Of a stretch of DNA of 7,843 bases, positions 1,091 through 7,357 are shown piece after piece. The notes under the pieces were generated by a model that had not been told where the DNA came from, made no database searches, and was given only the letters and a program-made list of their open reading frames with translations. Location: NCBI GenBank assembly GCA_027063755.1, contig JAMORD010000084.1, positions 1 through 7,843 on the forward strand. The letters run 5' to 3'. The stretch's first letter is position 1. The number at the start of each line of letters is the position of its first letter. The stretch comes from a bacterium. GTDB taxonomy: Bacteria > Coprothermobacterota > Coprothermobacteria > Coprothermobacterales > JAADFF01. Made by a program: the position numbers and the translations under genes.

Positions 1091-1118
1091 GTGAAGGGGA
1101 GAAAACTCTCCCCTTCAC
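1082..1118 (-). terminator. Intrinsic terminator between convergent folC and ligase gene
   Basis: A perfect 12-bp inverted repeat (1091-1102 with 1107-1118) encloses a 4-base loop. Read on the minus strand it is followed by TTATTTTTTA, the complement of the A-run at the end of folC, so it is a good rho-independent terminator for the minus-strand cluster. On the plus strand there is no clean T-run after 1118, so it is only a hairpin for folC transcripts. The stem contains the ligase stop codon (1115-1117), and the minus-strand T-tract overlaps the last codons and stop of folC. Confidence 0.8.
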
Positions 1119-1834
1119 AATGCCTTTACTTTGTTTATGTATCTGCTGAGTATTTCGTTTCTATCTATCTTCCATATTTGAGGGGTAAGCCCGTATGTCT
1201 CTTTTACAATTTTTAAGATGGTATGGTGCAGATCTTCTGGGGTAAACGATTTACCGTGCTGTGAAAATGAAGTGCCCTTCATAACCTCTGGTGGGGCAAA
1301 TACCATACCGGCATTCGGGGGAAATGGTTTCATTCTAATAGATGCATGCATAAGCATGCCTTTGCGTGTTTTTCTTACGGCTATACCTGCAATCTTCTCT
1401 CCGTTTATGCCAATCTCATAGCCTGTTGACGATGTGAAACAGCCTTCATGTTTGTGATATTCATCTTCAGCGGTCCTTGATAGAGGAAGGTTTGTCAGCT
1501 GAAACAGTGCTTCTCTCAGTATGTCTGATAGTTCTGTGTATGCATCCTTTGCCCTTCTGGGCAACAGCTCTGCCGGTAAATAGAGGGCAATAGATATATC
1601 ACCATCGTGAATAACAGCTTTGCCTCCTGTTGGTCTTCGTGCAATTACATAACCACTCTTTTGTATAAACTCTTTGTTAAGTCCTGATGTGTCTTGAAGA
1701 TAACCCAGGCTTATGGCATGGGGATGCCATGTAAAGGTATGTAAAGCGGGTATGTTTTCATCAAGCATGTACCAATCTATGGCCATGAGCGTATGACCAT
1801 GTTCGTTTTCTGTAAGTATGTGTCTTAATATCAT
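1115..1834 (-). CDS. lplA: Lipoate-protein ligase A / octanoyltransferase LipM family protein
   Basis: This is a 239-residue member of the biotin/lipoate A/B protein ligase family, which attaches or transfers lipoyl or octanoyl groups to lysines of lipoyl domains such as GcvH. The hallmark RRPTGGKAVIHDGDIS lies at residues 66-81 (RR.TGG.AV.H motif), and GEKIAGIAVRKTRKGMLMHASI at 145-166 carries the conserved lysine (K147) and the strand leading to the usual HGS-like element, here HAS. Cys132 in GCFTSSTGYEI sits where LipM-type octanoyltransferases carry their acyl-accepting cysteine, so an octanoyltransferase is as likely as an ATP-dependent lipoate ligase. No separate C-terminal ligase domain is present; 239 residues is short for E. 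coli-type LplA. The ATG shares its A with the moaD stop (TGATG), so translation is probably coupled. It is the last gene of the cluster, and no lipoylated protein is encoded in the window. Confidence 0.85.
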   Translation of the reverse strand: MILRHILTENEHGHTLMAIDWYMLDENIPALHTFTWHPHAISLGYLQDTSGLNKEFIQKSGYVIARRPTGGKAVIHDGDISIALYLPAELLPRRAKDAYTELSDILREALFQLTNLPLSRTAEDEYHKHEGCFTSSTGYEIGINGEKIAGIAVRKTRKGMLMHASIRMKPFPPNAGMVFAPPEVMKGTSFSQHGKSFTPEDLHHTILKIVKETYGLTPQIWKIDRNEILSRYINKVKAL

Positions 1835-2076
1835 CAGCCACCACCCACAGGCGATATGATGGTAATACCTTTTTTCATATCCTCTTCTGTTATTGGCTCA
1901 TTCCATCGCCATATTGTGTCTCCTACTGTTATAGCACTAACAAGTCCTTTGTTGATACCCAGCTTTTCTATAAGGTCATTAGGGGTAAATGGTACATCTA
2001 TATCTACGGTAATGGTAGATTTTCCACCGGAAATATACTCTTTAGCATGTCCAGCGACCTTTATGGTGATTTCCAT
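1834..2076 (-). CDS. moaD: MoaD/ThiS-family ubiquitin-like sulfur carrier, AOR-associated
   Basis: This 80-residue beta-grasp protein has the MoaD layout: an N-terminal strand MEITIKVAG, a central helix PNDLIEKLGI (about 32-41), then VSAITVGDTIW and a C-terminal GITIISPVGGG ending in glycines. MoaD is adenylated and thiocarboxylated at its terminal Gly-Gly and donates sulfur for the dithiolene of molybdopterin/tungstopterin. Its position directly downstream of the AOR gene fits the common pairing of tungstopterin enzymes with their own MoaD paralogue. The start follows a strong ribosome binding site (GGAGGTGG) a few bases upstream of the ATG. The third terminal glycine (GGG, not the classical AGG) is compatible with function. 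A role in another sulfur-transfer pathway (ThiS-like) is possible but less likely given the neighbour. Confidence 0.85.
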   Translation of the reverse strand: MEITIKVAGHAKEYISGGKSTITVDIDVPFTPNDLIEKLGINKGLVSAITVGDTIWRWNEPITEEDMKKGITIISPVGGG

Positions 2077-2094
2077 AACACCACCTCCGGTGGT
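2077..2094 (-). promoter_or_regulatory. moaD ribosome binding site inside a small hairpin
   Basis: On the minus strand the leader just before the moaD ATG reads ACCACC-GGA-GGTGGT-GTT-ATG. The arms 2080-2085 and 2089-2094 are perfectly complementary (6 bp, 3-base loop), and the Shine-Dalgarno GGAGGTGG occupies the loop and 3' arm. The site is strong by sequence but could be partly hidden when the hairpin forms. Whether this is regulatory or incidental is not known. Confidence 0.5.
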
Positions 2095-2105
2095 ATTGTA
2101 GCATT

Positions 2106-2131
2106 AAAAAAGGCCCCGCGTGCGCGGGGCC
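2106..2131 (-). terminator. Strong intrinsic terminator between aor and moaD
   Basis: The minus strand has a GC-only stem GGCCCCGC/GCGGGGCC (2124-2131 with 2112-2119) and a 4-base loop, followed immediately by six T residues (complement of 2106-2111). This is a textbook rho-independent terminator placed 21 bases after the aor stop codon and 30 bases before the moaD start. It should end most transcripts after aor, leaving moaD and the ligase gene to read-through or a separate weak promoter. No convincing promoter is seen in the short space downstream. Confidence 0.88.
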
Positions 2132-2152
2132 CGATAGCCTCTTTTATGAATA

Positions 2153-3991
2153 TTACATGTTTTCTTCAACAAATTCCAGAATGCCAAGTTCCTGAAGTTT
2201 TTCCTTTGTTGGTCGTCCGTTCTTGTCCCAGCCACGCTTTGCATAGTAATCATCAAGGAGTTTATCAAACTCTTCCTTAGGAATAACGGCACCCTTGGCT
2301 GGTCCTGTTGGAATAGGCTCTTCAAGCCATCTCTTTGGTGGATAGTCCCAAGATCTGCCAAAACCGGGTTTGTGTCTGAACCAAATCATACGGGTGAGGT
2401 TCCATACACGTTCTGCAGCTTTCAGCATATCCTGGAGTGTCCAGTCAATGCCTGTAGCTGCAGACAGGAGTTTGGCGTAGTATTCAAGGTCAAGTCCCAG
2501 CTCTACCCACTGCAGACGGCATGTGGTTAGCATATCAAACATTGGTCTGATGTGCTGCAGTTCAATGACCTTATCTGCTGTCTCAGGTGTAATCTTGTGG
2601 CCAACGGAAATATCGTATGTGATAGCCCATGCTCTGTTGTGGTGGGCACCAATGTCGGCCGTTGCGTATGCAAGCATCATGCCTGGAGCCCATCTGGATT
2701 CATAACCAGAGATTTCCTGGCCTTTAACCTGCATGGCGAACTCGTGACCGGCTCCGAAGTAATCGGCGGCATATTTCACACCTTCTGCCAGTATCTTACC
2801 AATGCCTTCTCTATATGCAATCTTTTCAAGAAGATACTCTGCAGTTTCAACATCATTCCACTTGAGCTCTCTACCGTCTACCATGGATTTGGGGATAATA
2901 CCCTTCTGGAAGGCCTCTATGGCCCAACTGATAACTGCTCCCGATGATATTGTGTCAAGTCCCAGATTATCTGCTACCCAGTTGAGATAGGCAACATCGG
3001 CGACATCTGTGTTGATTCCGAGGTTACCACCCATGAGGGCCAGTGTCTCATACTCGGGACCTTCAACGACATATTCTTTTCCGCGATATGTGAATCTCAT
3101 AACCTTACCACATGGGGATGGACAGTTATAACAACCTTTATGTTTGACATCGTATGTCTCAATCATATAGCGACCATCAATCTTCTCATAGTTTTCAAGA
3201 TATGCAGTGGAGAAGTTGCGGGTTGGAAATGCACCATTTTCATTGGACCACTGCACAACAGATGTTGTGCCGTATTTGACCCAGAAATCATAGTTATCAG
3301 ATTTTGTGCATGCTACAATGGCCTCTCTGGCAATCTTCTTAAACTCTTCATCTCTGGCATACTGTATCTTGCCACCAGAACCTTTGACGACAATGGCCTT
3401 AACCTTCTTGAAGCCCATTGTTGTACCAACACCGGTACGGCCTGCCTGTCTACCGAGGTCGTGATGAATCATAGAGAATTTGGCAAGGTGTTCGGCGGCC
3501 GGACCTATAACAAGCACTTCTGCATCCTGGCCATATCTCTCCTTTAAAATTTCTTCTACCTCAAATGTACCTTTACCCCAGAGATCGGAGGCATCTATAA
3601 ACTCAATCTTGTCATCTTCAATGTAGATGATAACAGGCTCTGGAGAAATGTCTTCAAGAATAAGACCGTCCCAACCGGCATCTCTCATGGCTTTAGATAT
3701 TTTTCCACCAACATTGGAGTCACCATAACCGCCTGTTAGTGGGGACAGATGGCCGATGTCAAATTTACCAGAACCAGGGGTTTCCGTGCCAGATAGAGGA
3801 CCTGTCATAAGGTACAGGTTGTGTTCTGGTGTCAGTGGTTTTACGCCTTTCTGCTCTTTCCATACATAGTAAGCAATGAAACCACGGCCACCAATCCAGT
3901 TTCTTGCCATCTCCTCGGTGACCTCATCAATTTTTACTGTTCTTGTTTTCAGGTTGATTCTGGCTATTTTCCCCGCATAACCATAGAGCAT
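2153..3991 (-). CDS. aor: Tungsten-dependent aldehyde:ferredoxin oxidoreductase (AOR family)
   Basis: AOR family enzymes oxidise aldehydes to carboxylic acids with a tungsto-bispterin cofactor and one [4Fe-4S] cluster, passing electrons to ferredoxin in the cytoplasm. The 612-residue length is typical. The N-terminal beta-barrel domain (about 1-210) opens with LYGYAGKIARINLKT and contains NWIGGRGF, TGPLSGT and GGYGDSNVGGK. Cluster ligands are Cys287, Cys290 and Cys294 (CYNCPSPC) and Cys491, almost the same spacing as in Pyrococcus furiosus AOR. The pterin-binding D..GL(D) type motifs are DNLGLD (341-346) and DMLTTC (486-491). GPEYET (311-316) and DIGAHHNRAW (446-455) carry the acidic and histidine residues lining the active site in this family. 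The start follows GGGAGGTGAG, 23 bases after the DAO gene's stop codon. Placement in an amine/amino-acid dehydrogenase operon suggests it handles the aldehyde produced there. Substrate and metal (W versus Mo) are inferred from family. Confidence 0.96.
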   Translation of the reverse strand: MLYGYAGKIARINLKTRTVKIDEVTEEMARNWIGGRGFIAYYVWKEQKGVKPLTPEHNLYLMTGPLSGTETPGSGKFDIGHLSPLTGGYGDSNVGGKISKAMRDAGWDGLILEDISPEPVIIYIEDDKIEFIDASDLWGKGTFEVEEILKERYGQDAEVLVIGPAAEHLAKFSMIHHDLGRQAGRTGVGTTMGFKKVKAIVVKGSGGKIQYARDEEFKKIAREAIVACTKSDNYDFWVKYGTTSVVQWSNENGAFPTRNFSTAYLENYEKIDGRYMIETYDVKHKGCYNCPSPCGKVMRFTYRGKEYVVEGPEYETLALMGGNLGINTDVADVAYLNWVADNLGLDTISSGAVISWAIEAFQKGIIPKSMVDGRELKWNDVETAEYLLEKIAYREGIGKILAEGVKYAADYFGAGHEFAMQVKGQEISGYESRWAPGMMLAYATADIGAHHNRAWAITYDISVGHKITPETADKVIELQHIRPMFDMLTTCRLQWVELGLDLEYYAKLLSAATGIDWTLQDMLKAAERVWNLTRMIWFRHKPGFGRSWDYPPKRWLEEPIPTGPAKGAVIPKEEFDKLLDDYYAKRGWDKNGRPTKEKLQELGILEFVEENM

Positions 3992-4014
3992 AACAGCTCA
4001 CCTCCCATATATTT

Positions 4015-5184
4015 TTAGCCTACTACTGCAGGCTCAATGACCAATTTACCTTCATCAAAACGTTTCCAGTTAAGTTTAGTGATATCGTAGGCCAGCTCTT
4101 CGCCAACGATCCACTGTGCTAAGATCATGCCTACTGATGGACCAAACATAAATCCGTGTCCAGAACCGCCGGCTAGTATCCACAGACCATCGTAAGCATC
4201 AATGGGACCTACAATGTGGTGATGGTCGGTTGTCATATCGTAAAATCCTGCCCACTGTCTGACAATGTGGACATCTTTTAGGAAAGGCATAACCTCAAGT
4301 ATTGTAGAAGCCATTTTCTTTAAGAAGTGCCAGGAAGACTGAATATTATAATCTTTTGGATCAAACCAATGTTCAGGATCGTCGGGGGAAACGCCCATGA
4401 TAAATCCTCCATGGGGCCTCTGCTGTGCGTAGAAGTCTTTGGAAAACGATATAACCATGGGGTCAAGAAATCTTGCCAGAGGTTCTGTAATGAGTATCTC
4501 GTGTTTTTCTGCCCATAGTGGAATGTCTACACCTATATCTTTTAGTAACTTTGTAGACCATGTGCCAGCGGCTACAACAATGTTTCCACCGTATATAGGC
4601 CCGTCTGGAGTTTCTACTCCGACAACCTTTTCACCTTCGGTTAGCAGTTTTAATACAGGAGTGTATTTTCTCAGCTCTGCTCCTAAACGCTTAGCTGCTT
4701 CTATATATGCAAATGTTGTATAAAATGGATCTGCGTGTCCGTCTCTGGCATGGTATGTGGCTCCAACAACGCCGTCTAAGCGAAGCATAGGCCACCTATA
4801 GTGAACCTCTTCTGGGGTAAGGATTTCTGTATTGATACCTATTTTGTGCTGAACTCTAACATTTCTTCTCAGATTTTCCATTTCCTCTTCAGAATATGCC
4901 AGCACGAGGTATCCACCTTGGTGAAGCCCTATGAGTTCTTTCGGATAATCAAGTTCCTCATGGAGGTTTTCAAACTTTTCCAGTGATATCTTCATGAGGC
5001 TAACATTAAATTCTGTTCCAAACTGGGCCCTAATACCGGCTGCACATGACCCCGTAGCTCCGGCTGTAGGGAAGTCTTTGTCAAGGATGAGAATGGAACC
5101 GGCCTTTCTTTTTGCAAGTTCATATGCGACGACGGCACCGCTTATACCTGCTCCAACGACGATATAATCATATGTTTTATTCAT
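4015..5184 (-). CDS. FAD-dependent amino acid/amine dehydrogenase, DAO family (PDH beta / SoxB / HcnC type)
   Basis: A 389-residue flavoprotein of the D-amino-acid-oxidase fold, catalysing oxidation of an amino acid or secondary amine C-N bond. The FAD Rossmann motif YIVVGAGISGAVVA is at 7-20. A central substrate domain follows (HARDGHADPF 145-154; VVAAGTWS 203-210). The C-terminal FAD-closing signature RQWAGFYDMTTDHHHIVG (309-326) and GGSGHGFMFGPSVG (339-352) resembles the beta subunits of archaeal dye-linked L-proline dehydrogenase and sarcosine oxidase, and HcnC. No signal peptide is visible. It overlaps the BFD-like gene upstream by 8 bases, and its ribosome binding site (GGAGGTGG) lies in the last codons of that gene. 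This should be the catalytic subunit of the complex encoded by the five upstream redox genes. Candidate substrates by analogy are proline, sarcosine, dimethylglycine, glycine or an opine; the sequence does not discriminate. Confidence 0.9.
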   Translation of the reverse strand: MNKTYDYIVVGAGISGAVVAYELAKRKAGSILILDKDFPTAGATGSCAAGIRAQFGTEFNVSLMKISLEKFENLHEELDYPKELIGLHQGGYLVLAYSEEEMENLRRNVRVQHKIGINTEILTPEEVHYRWPMLRLDGVVGATYHARDGHADPFYTTFAYIEAAKRLGAELRKYTPVLKLLTEGEKVVGVETPDGPIYGGNIVVAAGTWSTKLLKDIGVDIPLWAEKHEILITEPLARFLDPMVISFSKDFYAQQRPHGGFIMGVSPDDPEHWFDPKDYNIQSSWHFLKKMASTILEVMPFLKDVHIVRQWAGFYDMTTDHHHIVGPIDAYDGLWILAGGSGHGFMFGPSVGMILAQWIVGEELAYDITKLNWKRFDEGKLVIEPAVVG

Positions 5185-5464
5185 TATCTTCCACCTCCAC
5201 TGCGGTGGCGAATGTAATGTTCTTCATAGGGGGTCTTATCATAGTAGGCCTCATTGGCACTTTATCCGGTGTGGTATTCCAGTAGCGGGCCAATTCGCGG
5301 AGGATAATAGGTCTACATGTCTTACCGCCACATGGTCCCATTCCAGCCCTTGTGTATCTTTTTACTTCGTCATAGGTGGTGTATCCCAGTTCATAAATAG
5401 CCTTTCTAATATCTGCCAGAGTCACATCTTCACAACGGCATACGATTACCTTTTCGGGATCCAT
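5177..5464 (-). CDS. BFD-like [2Fe-2S] protein, small subunit of dehydrogenase complex
   Basis: A 95-residue protein with the bacterioferritin-associated-ferredoxin (BFD/Fer2_BFD) domain. Cys9 and Cys11 (VCRCED) with Cys45 and Cys50 (GPCGGKTC) make the usual C-x-C...C-x4-C [2Fe-2S] set, followed by the helix PIILRELARYW. The stretch after residue 65 is proline-rich and charged, likely a tail contacting partner subunits. This domain occurs fused to the C-terminus of FAD/NAD subunits such as HcnB and the opine oxidase subunits; here it is a separate gene, as in the small subunit of archaeal proline dehydrogenase complexes. Its AGGAGGTGA ribosome binding site overlaps the ferredoxin stop codon, and the end overlaps the DAO gene by 8 bases. 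It probably relays electrons between the two flavin subunits. Confidence 0.88.
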   Translation of the reverse strand: MDPEKVIVCRCEDVTLADIRKAIYELGYTTYDEVKRYTRAGMGPCGGKTCRPIILRELARYWNTTPDKVPMRPTMIRPPMKNITFATAVEVEDNE

Positions 5465-5470
5465 AGGGCT

Positions 5471-5956
5471 TCACCTCCTCTTAAAGAAACGCACCTGAAG
5501 GGCATAGCCCTTTGGCACTTTTATGGTTACTATAGGTGTCTTGTCTTTCTTGTTAACAGCAGGTAAGTGCACAACTTTTTCAATCGTTCCTTCGCACACA
5601 ACTCTTCCTTCGTGATTGAGACAATCTACGGTTTCTCCTACTTCTGGTAGCGGAAATTCATATGGTATAGAGACACGATCCCCATCTTCTTTACTGCCAT
5701 CTACTAAGGCTATGGCAAGACCCGGACAGGCTGCTACGCATAGTGCACAACCTATGCACTTGTCAAAGTCTATCTGGGGGATAGCTGTTAGTTTTTCCAT
5801 GGTAATGGCTCCAGTAGGACAGGAAACAACACAGGGATTGCAAGGTATTTCCTGCCAACATTCAATCATGGCCACGGCACCTTTTTTCATACGCTCTGCT
5901 GGAGGTGCCTTGGCAAGTATATCTTCTTTGGTTGGAATTCCATCAACAGGAAGCAT
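5471..5956 (-). CDS. Two-cluster 4Fe-4S ferredoxin-like subunit of dehydrogenase complex
   Basis: This 161-residue protein carries two [4Fe-4S] motifs. The second is canonical, C67-x2-C70-x2-C73-x3-C77-P (CIGCALCVAACP). The first is wider, C33-x5-C39-x2-C42-x3-C46-P (CWQEIPCNPCVVSCP). Two more cysteines (112, 121) lie in a basic C-terminal region (about 100-161) without a recognised motif. Ferredoxin-like subunits of this size accompany the DAO and FAD/NAD subunits in archaeal proline dehydrogenase clusters. The start overlaps the upstream FAD gene stop by one base (TAATG), with AAGGGGG as ribosome binding site in that gene's last codons. No signal peptide is seen. It is a plausible direct electron partner for AOR as well as for the dehydrogenase, which is inference from position. 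Confidence 0.88.
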   Translation of the reverse strand: MLPVDGIPTKEDILAKAPPAERMKKGAVAMIECWQEIPCNPCVVSCPTGAITMEKLTAIPQIDFDKCIGCALCVAACPGLAIALVDGSKEDGDRVSIPYEFPLPEVGETVDCLNHEGRVVCEGTIEKVVHLPAVNKKDKTPIVTIKVPKGYALQVRFFKRR

Positions 5957-7050
5957 TACTGTAGCCCCCTTTCTTTTGCGGCCTCGTGGAGTTTATGCAG
6001 ACCTTGACGCAATCTTTCCAGTAGTGGTGCATCTCTTAGCTGAGAGAGTTCTTTTTTCCATTCTTCTATTGCTTCATCGTTAACATCAAATCCTAAGTCT
6101 TTTGCGGCTACAGCACCGGCTATTTTGCCTTCCAGTGCTGCTGTTGTGGCCTCTTCAATACCTGAGGCATCACCGGCAACATATATCTCAGGTTTGTTTG
6201 TCCTCATGTTTTCACTGTGAACAGGTACAAGTCCACCAAGCTCGGGTATCCATATCAGTTCAACACCAGCCTGATACATAAGGTCTGTTAGCGGTGAAAG
6301 GCCTATAGATATGGCTATAGTATCCACATCAAGTTCTTTTTCGGTGCCGGGTATAGGTTGAAATTTTTCATCTATCTCGGCAATGGTGGCACCTTCTACC
6401 CATTTCGTACCCTTTATTTCTATGACAGTGTGTTTCATATATAGTGGAATACCCATTCTTCTAATCTTGGTAACATGAACCCAATATGCACCACCCAGTT
6501 TAGGTAAAACATCAACAACTGCTTTGACCTCGGCCCCGGCCTGGGCCAGCTGATATGCCAAGATAACACCGATATTACCGGCACCAACAATGAGATATTT
6601 TTCACCGGGGAGCACACCGTATACATGCATCATAGTTTGTATGGCACCGGCTCCATACACACCGGGAATATCTGCATTTTCTATAGGCAGTGTTTTTTCC
6701 TGTGCACCTACGGCTATAACAACTTTTTTCGGATATATGGGAATAAGTTTTCCCTCTTTTTCTATCATCCATGCACCATCGTCGTAAAGTCCTATGGCCT
6801 CGCTGGATAACATAACGGTGATGTTCTCATGTTCTTCTACTGCTTTTGACCATTCTTCTGCCAGCTGAATACCTCTTGTACCGGCACCTTTTTCGGCCCA
6901 TCCAAAGAATTTGTGAGTTTGTTTGACAAGCTGTCCTCCCAAGTGGGCTTGCCTTTCTACTAAGGTGACAGAGGCTCCTGCACGGGCTGCTTCTATGGCG
7001 GCATTCATACCAGCTGGTCCTCCACCAATAACAAGAACATCAGTTTTCAT
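5956..7050 (-). CDS. FAD/NAD-binding oxidoreductase subunit (HcnB / PDH alpha / SoxA-like, unfused)
   Basis: A pyridine-nucleotide-disulfide-type flavoprotein without the CxxC redox disulfide. I place the start at the ATG at 7050 (364 residues, MKTDVLVIGGGPAG) instead of the in-frame start at 7086, because the FAD Rossmann motif should begin within a few residues of the N-terminus and a GGGGG ribosome binding site lies about 9 bases upstream of 7050. Motifs: FAD GGGPAG (9-14), GGQLVKQTHKFFG (38-50), VVIAVGAQEKTLPI (110-123), NAD(P) Rossmann YLIVGAGNIGVILA (152-165), and the second FAD motif EIYVAGDASGIEEATTAALEG (288-308). A charged helical tail ends the protein. It overlaps the 2Fe-2S gene by 11 bases and the ferredoxin gene by one. 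By family analogy it is the diaphorase-like subunit that exchanges electrons with NAD(P) or a dye and contacts the BFD and 2Fe-2S proteins; the preferred acceptor is unknown. Confidence 0.9.
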   Translation of the reverse strand: MKTDVLVIGGGPAGMNAAIEAARAGASVTLVERQAHLGGQLVKQTHKFFGWAEKGAGTRGIQLAEEWSKAVEEHENITVMLSSEAIGLYDDGAWMIEKEGKLIPIYPKKVVIAVGAQEKTLPIENADIPGVYGAGAIQTMMHVYGVLPGEKYLIVGAGNIGVILAYQLAQAGAEVKAVVDVLPKLGGAYWVHVTKIRRMGIPLYMKHTVIEIKGTKWVEGATIAEIDEKFQPIPGTEKELDVDTIAISIGLSPLTDLMYQAGVELIWIPELGGLVPVHSENMRTNKPEIYVAGDASGIEEATTAALEGKIAGAVAAKDLGFDVNDEAIEEWKKELSQLRDAPLLERLRQGLHKLHEAAKERGLQ

Positions 7051-7357
7051 AGTGCAGTGCCCCCTTTCCCTTGATACGCTCAACACGCATGCCTTCTTTC
7101 AGTGGTGTAATGCATGTTCTAACATTGGGTACACCGTCTACTGTCATAAGGCAAGATGAGCAATTTCCTATAGCACAATAAAAACCACGGGGCCGATGGA
7201 GTTTAAGACTTTCTCTAAAGACCTTTACACCGTTTGCTACCAAGGCAGATGCAATTGTATCTCCTTCATATCCCCACATCTCCTTGCCTTCAAAGTAGAA
7301 TTTTATCTTTTTACCTCGCTTAAATGTGAGTATGGGATGGTTTTCTATGCGTTTCAA
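7040..7357 (-). CDS. Small [2Fe-2S] protein (HcnA / SoxA N-terminal Fer2_4 domain)
   Basis: A 105-residue plant-type [2Fe-2S] domain of the kind at the N-terminus of sarcosine oxidase alpha or standing alone as HcnA. The YEGDTIASALVANGVKVFRES segment (30-50) and RPRGFYCAIGNCSSCLMTVDG (55-75) are characteristic; cluster ligands are Cys61, Cys66, Cys69 and Cys82. The start codon is TTG at 7357: it lies just after a strong GGAGGGGGTGA site, and the next in-frame ATG (residue 27) would remove conserved sequence. It is the first gene of the redox cluster, and its last codons overlap the FAD/NAD gene by 11 bases, in a different frame. It is best read as a separate subunit of the same complex, not a frameshift remnant, since both reading frames have proper ends and ribosome binding sites. 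Confidence 0.9.
   Translation of the reverse strand: MKRIENHPILTFKRGKKIKFYFEGKEMWGYEGDTIASALVANGVKVFRESLKLHRPRGFYCAIGNCSSCLMTVDGVPNVRTCITPLKEGMRVERIKGKGALHYEN

Follow-up and report, generated by a model that had tools for sequence, protein, structure and literature searches.

A conserved operon joining a PDH1-type dehydrogenase complex to a FOR-type tungsten oxidoreductase is proposed to convert proline to glutamate in anaerobes

The window analyzed here is an entire contig (C84; 7,843 bp) from a 1.5-Mb metagenome-assembled genome (MAG; completeness 88%) whose host, one of a group of heat-loving bacteria that feed on protein, belongs to an uncultured family of the Coprothermobacterales; MAG JAADFF01 is a sister species and Coprothermobacteraceae bacterium Ch108 another relative. 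On its minus strand, the window encodes a five-subunit redox complex with a DAO-fold catalytic subunit, followed by a tungsten aldehyde:ferredoxin oxidoreductase (AOR) of the formaldehyde ferredoxin oxidoreductase (FOR) type. Judging from sequence, these genes probably form an operon for the anaerobic conversion of proline, via pyrroline-5-carboxylate (P5C) and glutamate semialdehyde, to glutamate, with the FOR-type AOR replacing P5C dehydrogenase (P5CDH). This proposal is built on gene content, gene order, conservation, a replacement pattern and active-site residues, all of them observed, from which the substrate, products and electron acceptors are deduced.

The gene order is Fer2–FAD/NAD–4Fe4S–BFD–DAO–AOR, then moaD and an LplA-like ligase. 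An initial annotation had placed five redox genes, an AOR gene, moaD and a ligase gene on one strand, and all were confirmed as intact open reading frames (ORFs) with domain assignments. The complex begins with a [2Fe-2S] Fer2_4 subunit (7040..7357, 105 aa), the equivalent of the N-terminal domain of PDH1 alpha/HcnA, in which the cluster Cys residues 61, 66, 69 and 82 are kept. Next is a FAD/second-nucleotide (Pyr_redox_2) subunit, by domain match of the PDH-alpha/HcnB type (5956..7086), for which the tool-picked start may lie too far upstream (47-nucleotide [nt] overlap with Fer2). A two-cluster 4Fe-4S subunit (5471..5956, 161 aa) and a BFD-type [2Fe-2S] subunit (Fer2_BFD; 5177..5464, 95 aa) are probable equivalents of pdhF and pdhX, respectively, as judged by domain type and not by alignment. 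The DAO subunit (4015..5184) and the AOR (2153..3991, 612 aa, with AOR N and C domains), the proposed glutamate-semialdehyde oxidoreductase, complete the series. Because the intergenic distances from Fer2 to AOR are so tight (-47, -1, 6, -8 and 23 nt; maximum gap 23 nt), we treat Fer2–AOR as one transcription unit. A purine-rich ribosome-binding site precedes most genes of the window.

The AOR is closer to Pyrococcus furiosus FOR (best match, 541 bits, full-length homology) than to P. furiosus AOR (417 bits), and in a tree it falls in the FOR-type clade with an SH-aLRT of 100, although FOR's own branch is long and its exact placement unsure. Five residues of the FOR active site (1B25/1B4N), to which roles in catalysis or substrate binding have reportedly been assigned, are all present: E315, Y430, H451, R482 and R492 of the window protein correspond to FOR E308, Y416, H437, R481 and R492. 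The R481/R492 pair is invariant in all 57 FOR-type sequences that are complete at that region, and it is absent from P. furiosus AOR, Clostridium autoethanogenum AOR and the paralogue encoded on contig C124 of the host's own genome. An AlphaFold model of the AOR, made from a four-row alignment, had a mean pLDDT of 54 and was not used. To our knowledge, what FOR acts on in the cell has been an open question since the 1990s, and kinetics together with a bound glutarate led to the suspicion of glutaric semialdehyde. According to a 2025 review, FOR has its lowest Km with glutaric dialdehyde, glutarate is bound in 1B4N, and the native substrate may be glutaric semialdehyde (PMC12096430). Glutamate is 2-aminoglutarate, and therefore its gamma-semialdehyde is the matching C5 semialdehyde, alike in shape to glutaric semialdehyde. 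Unlike FOR, the window AOR sits in a proline-dehydrogenase operon.

The assignment of the complex to proline starts from its DAO subunit. Its nearest solved relative is 1y56_B, PDH1 beta of the Pyrococcus horikoshii L-proline dehydrogenase (238.8 bits), while the next, dimethylglycine dehydrogenase (DMGDH), reaches 130.8 bits and sarcosine oxidase is also far behind. The PDH1-like residues C47, Y92 and Y315 are conserved across AOR-linked, P5CDH-linked and PDH1 proteins, except that C47 is missing in two, and they differ in the sarcosine oxidase SoxB and in DMGDH (one sequence of each compared). With these lower scores and differing residues, and with no GcvT-like domain in any window protein, the complex does not fall among the sarcosine oxidases or dimethylglycine dehydrogenases. 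Its sequences show a FAD site and a second nucleotide motif besides the Fe-S subunits, and the full PDH1-type subunit set (Fer2_4, Pyr_redox, Fer4, BFD and DAO) is encoded in one unit; for the PyrR subunit, a search of solved structures returned no match at 1e-30. The best reading of these features is a PDH1-type L-proline dehydrogenase.

The closest known systems are the dye-linked L-proline dehydrogenases of the Thermococcales (PDH1 of P. horikoshii, 1Y56; pdhA-F-X-B of T. profundus), which share the DAO subunit, the FAD/nucleotide subunit and two small subunits. Here, in contrast, Fer2_4 is a gene of its own with all four Cys, whereas the Fer2 domain of the 1Y56 protein has lost its cluster Cys (PMC1949818), and an AOR gene is joined to the complex. 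The L-proline dehydrogenase genes of T. litoralis also cluster with a proline racemase-like gene (PMC4364671). HcnABC, the opine dehydrogenase OdhABC and D-hydroxyproline dehydrogenases have the same kinds of subunits, but they have fewer separate subunits and other substrates, and an AOR is not described with them in the accessible portions of the sources.

Relatives of this operon carry P5CDH in place of the AOR. P5CDH (TIGR01236/TIGR01237) is an unrelated, NAD-dependent aldehyde dehydrogenase (ALDH), not found in the window's genome, for which we propose the same conversion. It lies directly after DAO in L033, L185 and L212; in L193 and L196 it is found immediately upstream of the complex. 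The L033 and L212 DAO proteins share a region of the DAO tree with AOR-linked proteins. The same proline complex is encoded in four genomes of the Coprothermobacter group, with the same neighbors in three of them and no AOR there; all four encode P5CDH (TIGR01236, 809 bits, over the cut-off) and none has a FOR-type AOR. Conversely, the five genomes G000, G001, G003, G007 and G008, the window's own included, have a FOR-type AOR and no member of the ALDH superfamily (PF00171), in a search that matched in 14 of 14 control genomes. Because these five genomes are 83-95% complete, missing sequence is unlikely to explain the absence in all of them. No PutA-type proline dehydrogenase (Pro_dh) was found in the nine genomes of the phylum or in 27 others searched, which leaves the DAO complex as the sole candidate partner for P5CDH in the phylum. 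For one of the five, the serpentinite-spring relative BS5B28 (G008), an earlier study reported an AOR that had no known pathway (PMC9751293). In loci L063 and L032 of this genome, that AOR is of the FOR type, with its own ferredoxin and MoaD-like gene, and there is also a proline-type complex. BS5B28 gave no PF00171 match, yet the same paper lists a bifunctional alcohol/aldehyde dehydrogenase. We also tested for strict genome-wide exclusion between AOR and P5CDH, which was not found outside the phylum.

The possibility, raised in the initial annotation, that the adjacency of dehydrogenase and AOR is confined to a single genome did not hold. When an alignment of four FOR-type AORs was used to scan 84,980 species, 68 loci were obtained, and in 21 of these DAO is upstream of the AOR, mostly in Bacillota. 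At least three further complex subunits accompany DAO in 20 of the 21, and a small ferredoxin usually separates DAO from the AOR. Since the loci were found without reference to DAO, the adjacency is far beyond chance. Some hosts are cultured; among all hosts are Dethiosulfatibacter aminovorans, Acidaminobacter hydrogenoformans, Sedimentibacter hydroxybenzoicus and Desulfovirgula thermocuniculi. A DAO search added one more linked locus, L226; in a sample of 386 genomes, none of the 38 DAO-containing genomes outside the phylum had an AOR beside DAO. The FOR-type AOR is unlinked to DAO in many loci, and several of the loci outside the 21 break off upstream of the AOR, so that linkage there cannot be judged. 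The Desulfovirgula locus L086:7169-13702 holds an OCD-family gene, DAO, ferredoxin, a FOR-type AOR and an AOR-type paralogue consecutively, and a full complex with P5CDH stands apart from it at L212. Other DAO complexes have directly beside them an AOR of a second subfamily (717-729 aa, ~30% identity to the window AOR, Arg/Lys at the positions of the FOR Arg pair; L216:3736-5895, L218:4180-6333 and L221:8631-10820).

Neighboring genes gave further clues to the substrate. At L077, a proline racemase gene opens the operon, its end meeting the start of the complex; proline racemase is its best NCBIfam match, at 461.7 bits under a cut-off of 556. A proline racemase over the cut-off stands beside a complex at L222, and P5C reductase, over the cut-off, is upstream of the FOR-type AOR at L104 and L135. 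At L218, where a DAO complex is joined to the second AOR subfamily, there are two PutP-like proline symporters, with PutP exactly at the cut-off; L142 has a PutP-like symporter below the cut-off. L086, L105 and L142 have genes of the OCD family, to which pyrroline-2-carboxylate reductases belong. The L104 and L135 clusters, which come from sulfate reducers (L104:6291-11863 and L135:6643-12629), consist of a BCCT transporter, P5C reductase, the FOR-type AOR and a MoaD-like gene without a DAO complex, and a ferredoxin is seen in L135. Class-III aminotransferases adjoin the FOR-type AOR at L092, L134, L114, L118, L120, L124 and L128, and also in a deltaproteobacterial group; these pairs suggest oxidation of semialdehydes derived from omega-amino acids.

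Several points weigh against the proline proposal. The contrast between AOR and P5CDH within the phylum is probably one replacement event and counts once. For the 71 genomes that carry a DAO homologue, the AOR/P5CDH association is a weak trend (Fisher p = 0.10, from hand-compiled counts). Ten genomes with the AOR operon also encode P5CDH, so the AOR is not always the sole enzyme for the semialdehyde step, and in Desulfovirgula one DAO operon carries P5CDH while a second carries AOR. In G007 and G008, the FOR-type AOR does not adjoin the DAO complex. That R481/R492 hold the distal carboxylate of glutarate is a reported role. One Bacillota clade has MttB and BCCT neighbors; such genes occur at L099, L101, L105 and L129 and suggest betaines. 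Proline betaine, at a guess, would reconcile these neighbors with proline. Finally, a DAO subunit near the archaeal L-proline dehydrogenase group can use octopine and not proline (PMC4575208).

Three other explanations for the operon were considered. The one that survives best is that the complex acts on another cyclic imino or omega-amino acid (pipecolate, giving aminoadipate semialdehyde; hydroxyproline; or D-proline) and the AOR on the resulting semialdehyde. We regard it as unlikely: members of the DAO family do use such substrates, the proline racemase and OCD-family (ketimine-reductase-like) neighbors would also fit D-proline/hydroxyproline metabolism, and other FOR-type AORs adjoin semialdehyde-making aminotransferases, but P5CDH, which is specific for glutamate semialdehyde, fills the same operon slot in relatives, and Coprothermobacter has P5CDH without another proline dehydrogenase. 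Somewhat more doubtful is that the AOR scavenges aldehydes in general or reduces acids, and shares its regulation with the complex only because both serve growth on protein-derived amino acids. Detoxification of aldehydes seems to be a frequent role of AORs sensu stricto (PMC12096430), and the unlinked FOR-type genes of G007, G008 and many other loci would suit such a role, whereas the tight linkage in more than 20 genomes, the swap of position with P5CDH and an active-site pattern unlike that of general AORs would not. Least likely of the three is demethylation of dimethylglycine or sarcosine to formaldehyde, which the AOR would oxidize to formate: the nearest characterized relative of the AOR is named for formaldehyde and one Bacillota clade of operons has betaine-type BCCT transporters and MttB methyltransferases nearby, but the DAO subunit is nearer PDH1 than SoxB or DMGDH, P5CDH, proline racemase, P5C reductase and PutP are found at such loci, the conserved Arg pair is unnecessary for formaldehyde, and the betaine-type genes are absent from the window and could serve proline betaine. 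The initial annotation had proposed a two-step anaerobic route from amine to acid, with formaldehyde among the options; the evidence supports such a route and narrows it to proline, glutamate semialdehyde and glutamate, while the formaldehyde option has become less likely.

In the proposed pathway from proline to glutamate, the PDH1-like complex, with DAO as its catalytic subunit, would oxidize L-proline to P5C, and the electrons would exit via the FAD and Fe-S subunits. P5C would open spontaneously to glutamate gamma-semialdehyde, which the FOR-type AOR would oxidize to glutamate while reducing ferredoxin; MoaD would support the tungsten cofactor. The conversion of proline to P5C has a potential of about -0.12 V and cannot by itself reduce ferredoxin, whereas aldehyde oxidation lies well below -0.4 V and can. 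The earlier claim that both steps feed low-potential carriers is therefore unsupported for proline oxidation, whose potential is too positive. P5CDH spends the potential drop of the aldehyde on NAD; with an AOR instead, the low-potential electrons of the aldehyde would be saved as reduced ferredoxin. Confurcation of proline electrons and reduced ferredoxin to NAD by the complex is possible. A broader scheme, which we offer tentatively and consider improbable as a whole, is that the FOR-type family comprises amino-acid-semialdehyde oxidoreductases (for glutamate semialdehyde with the proline complex and for other omega-semialdehydes with class-III aminotransferases), and that the Fe-S/FAD/NAD subunits of the proline complex use AOR-reduced ferredoxin in confurcation to NADH or in other energy conservation.

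Downstream of the AOR, the remaining two genes probably form a separate second unit. The 76-nt spacing between AOR and moaD holds a GC-rich hairpin and T run on the minus strand (2111..2132; 9-bp GC stem), which we read as an intrinsic terminator. The sister species has a hairpin at the equivalent place (L025:10839-10867; z = -4.6) with a different stem sequence; because the position is the same and the stem has changed, we argue that the terminator is kept. The terminator scan overall was not above shuffles, and the call is based on these two sites themselves. The moaD stop overlaps the lplA start by one base. Although no Pfam or NCBIfam model matched the moaD product (1834..2076, 80 aa), presumed to be a sulfur carrier for the tungsten pyranopterin, its GGG end, its place between AOR and LplA and a weak similarity to small proteins after other FOR-type AORs (26-38%, short tblastn matches) make MoaD-like a fair assignment, partly based on position. 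Pairs of moaD and AOR genes serve tungsten cofactor synthesis (Iyer et al. 2006, PMC1779556), and the likeness here is the moaD beside the AOR; as far as the accessible part of that paper goes, a link to a proline dehydrogenase complex is not described there. The LplA-type lipoate/octanoate ligase (1115..1834, 239 aa, with an LplA-type catalytic domain) probably serves GcvH, a lipoyl acceptor encoded elsewhere in the genome, rather than the proline pathway. Among the loci compared, lplA adjoins the AOR only in the window's genus, and with the terminator and GcvH this speaks against the ligase as a part of the pathway. Its inclusion in the cluster by the initial annotation was accordingly dropped, and the same probably applies to moaD.

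In a literature search that covered few subscription journals, we found no paper that links AOR to P5C or to proline dehydrogenase in one pathway, and novelty is provisional to that extent; no paper was found on Dethiosulfatibacter with proline and betaine. The conserved proline-dehydrogenase operon and the exchange with P5CDH point to glutamate semialdehyde as a substrate of FOR-type enzymes, a question testable in cultured A. hydrogenoformans, S. hydroxybenzoicus and D. aminovorans. If this is true, a little-understood family of tungsten enzymes would gain a directly testable natural role, protein-degrading anaerobes would have a ferredoxin-linked route of proline oxidation, and possible proline use by genomes that lack P5CDH would have an explanation.

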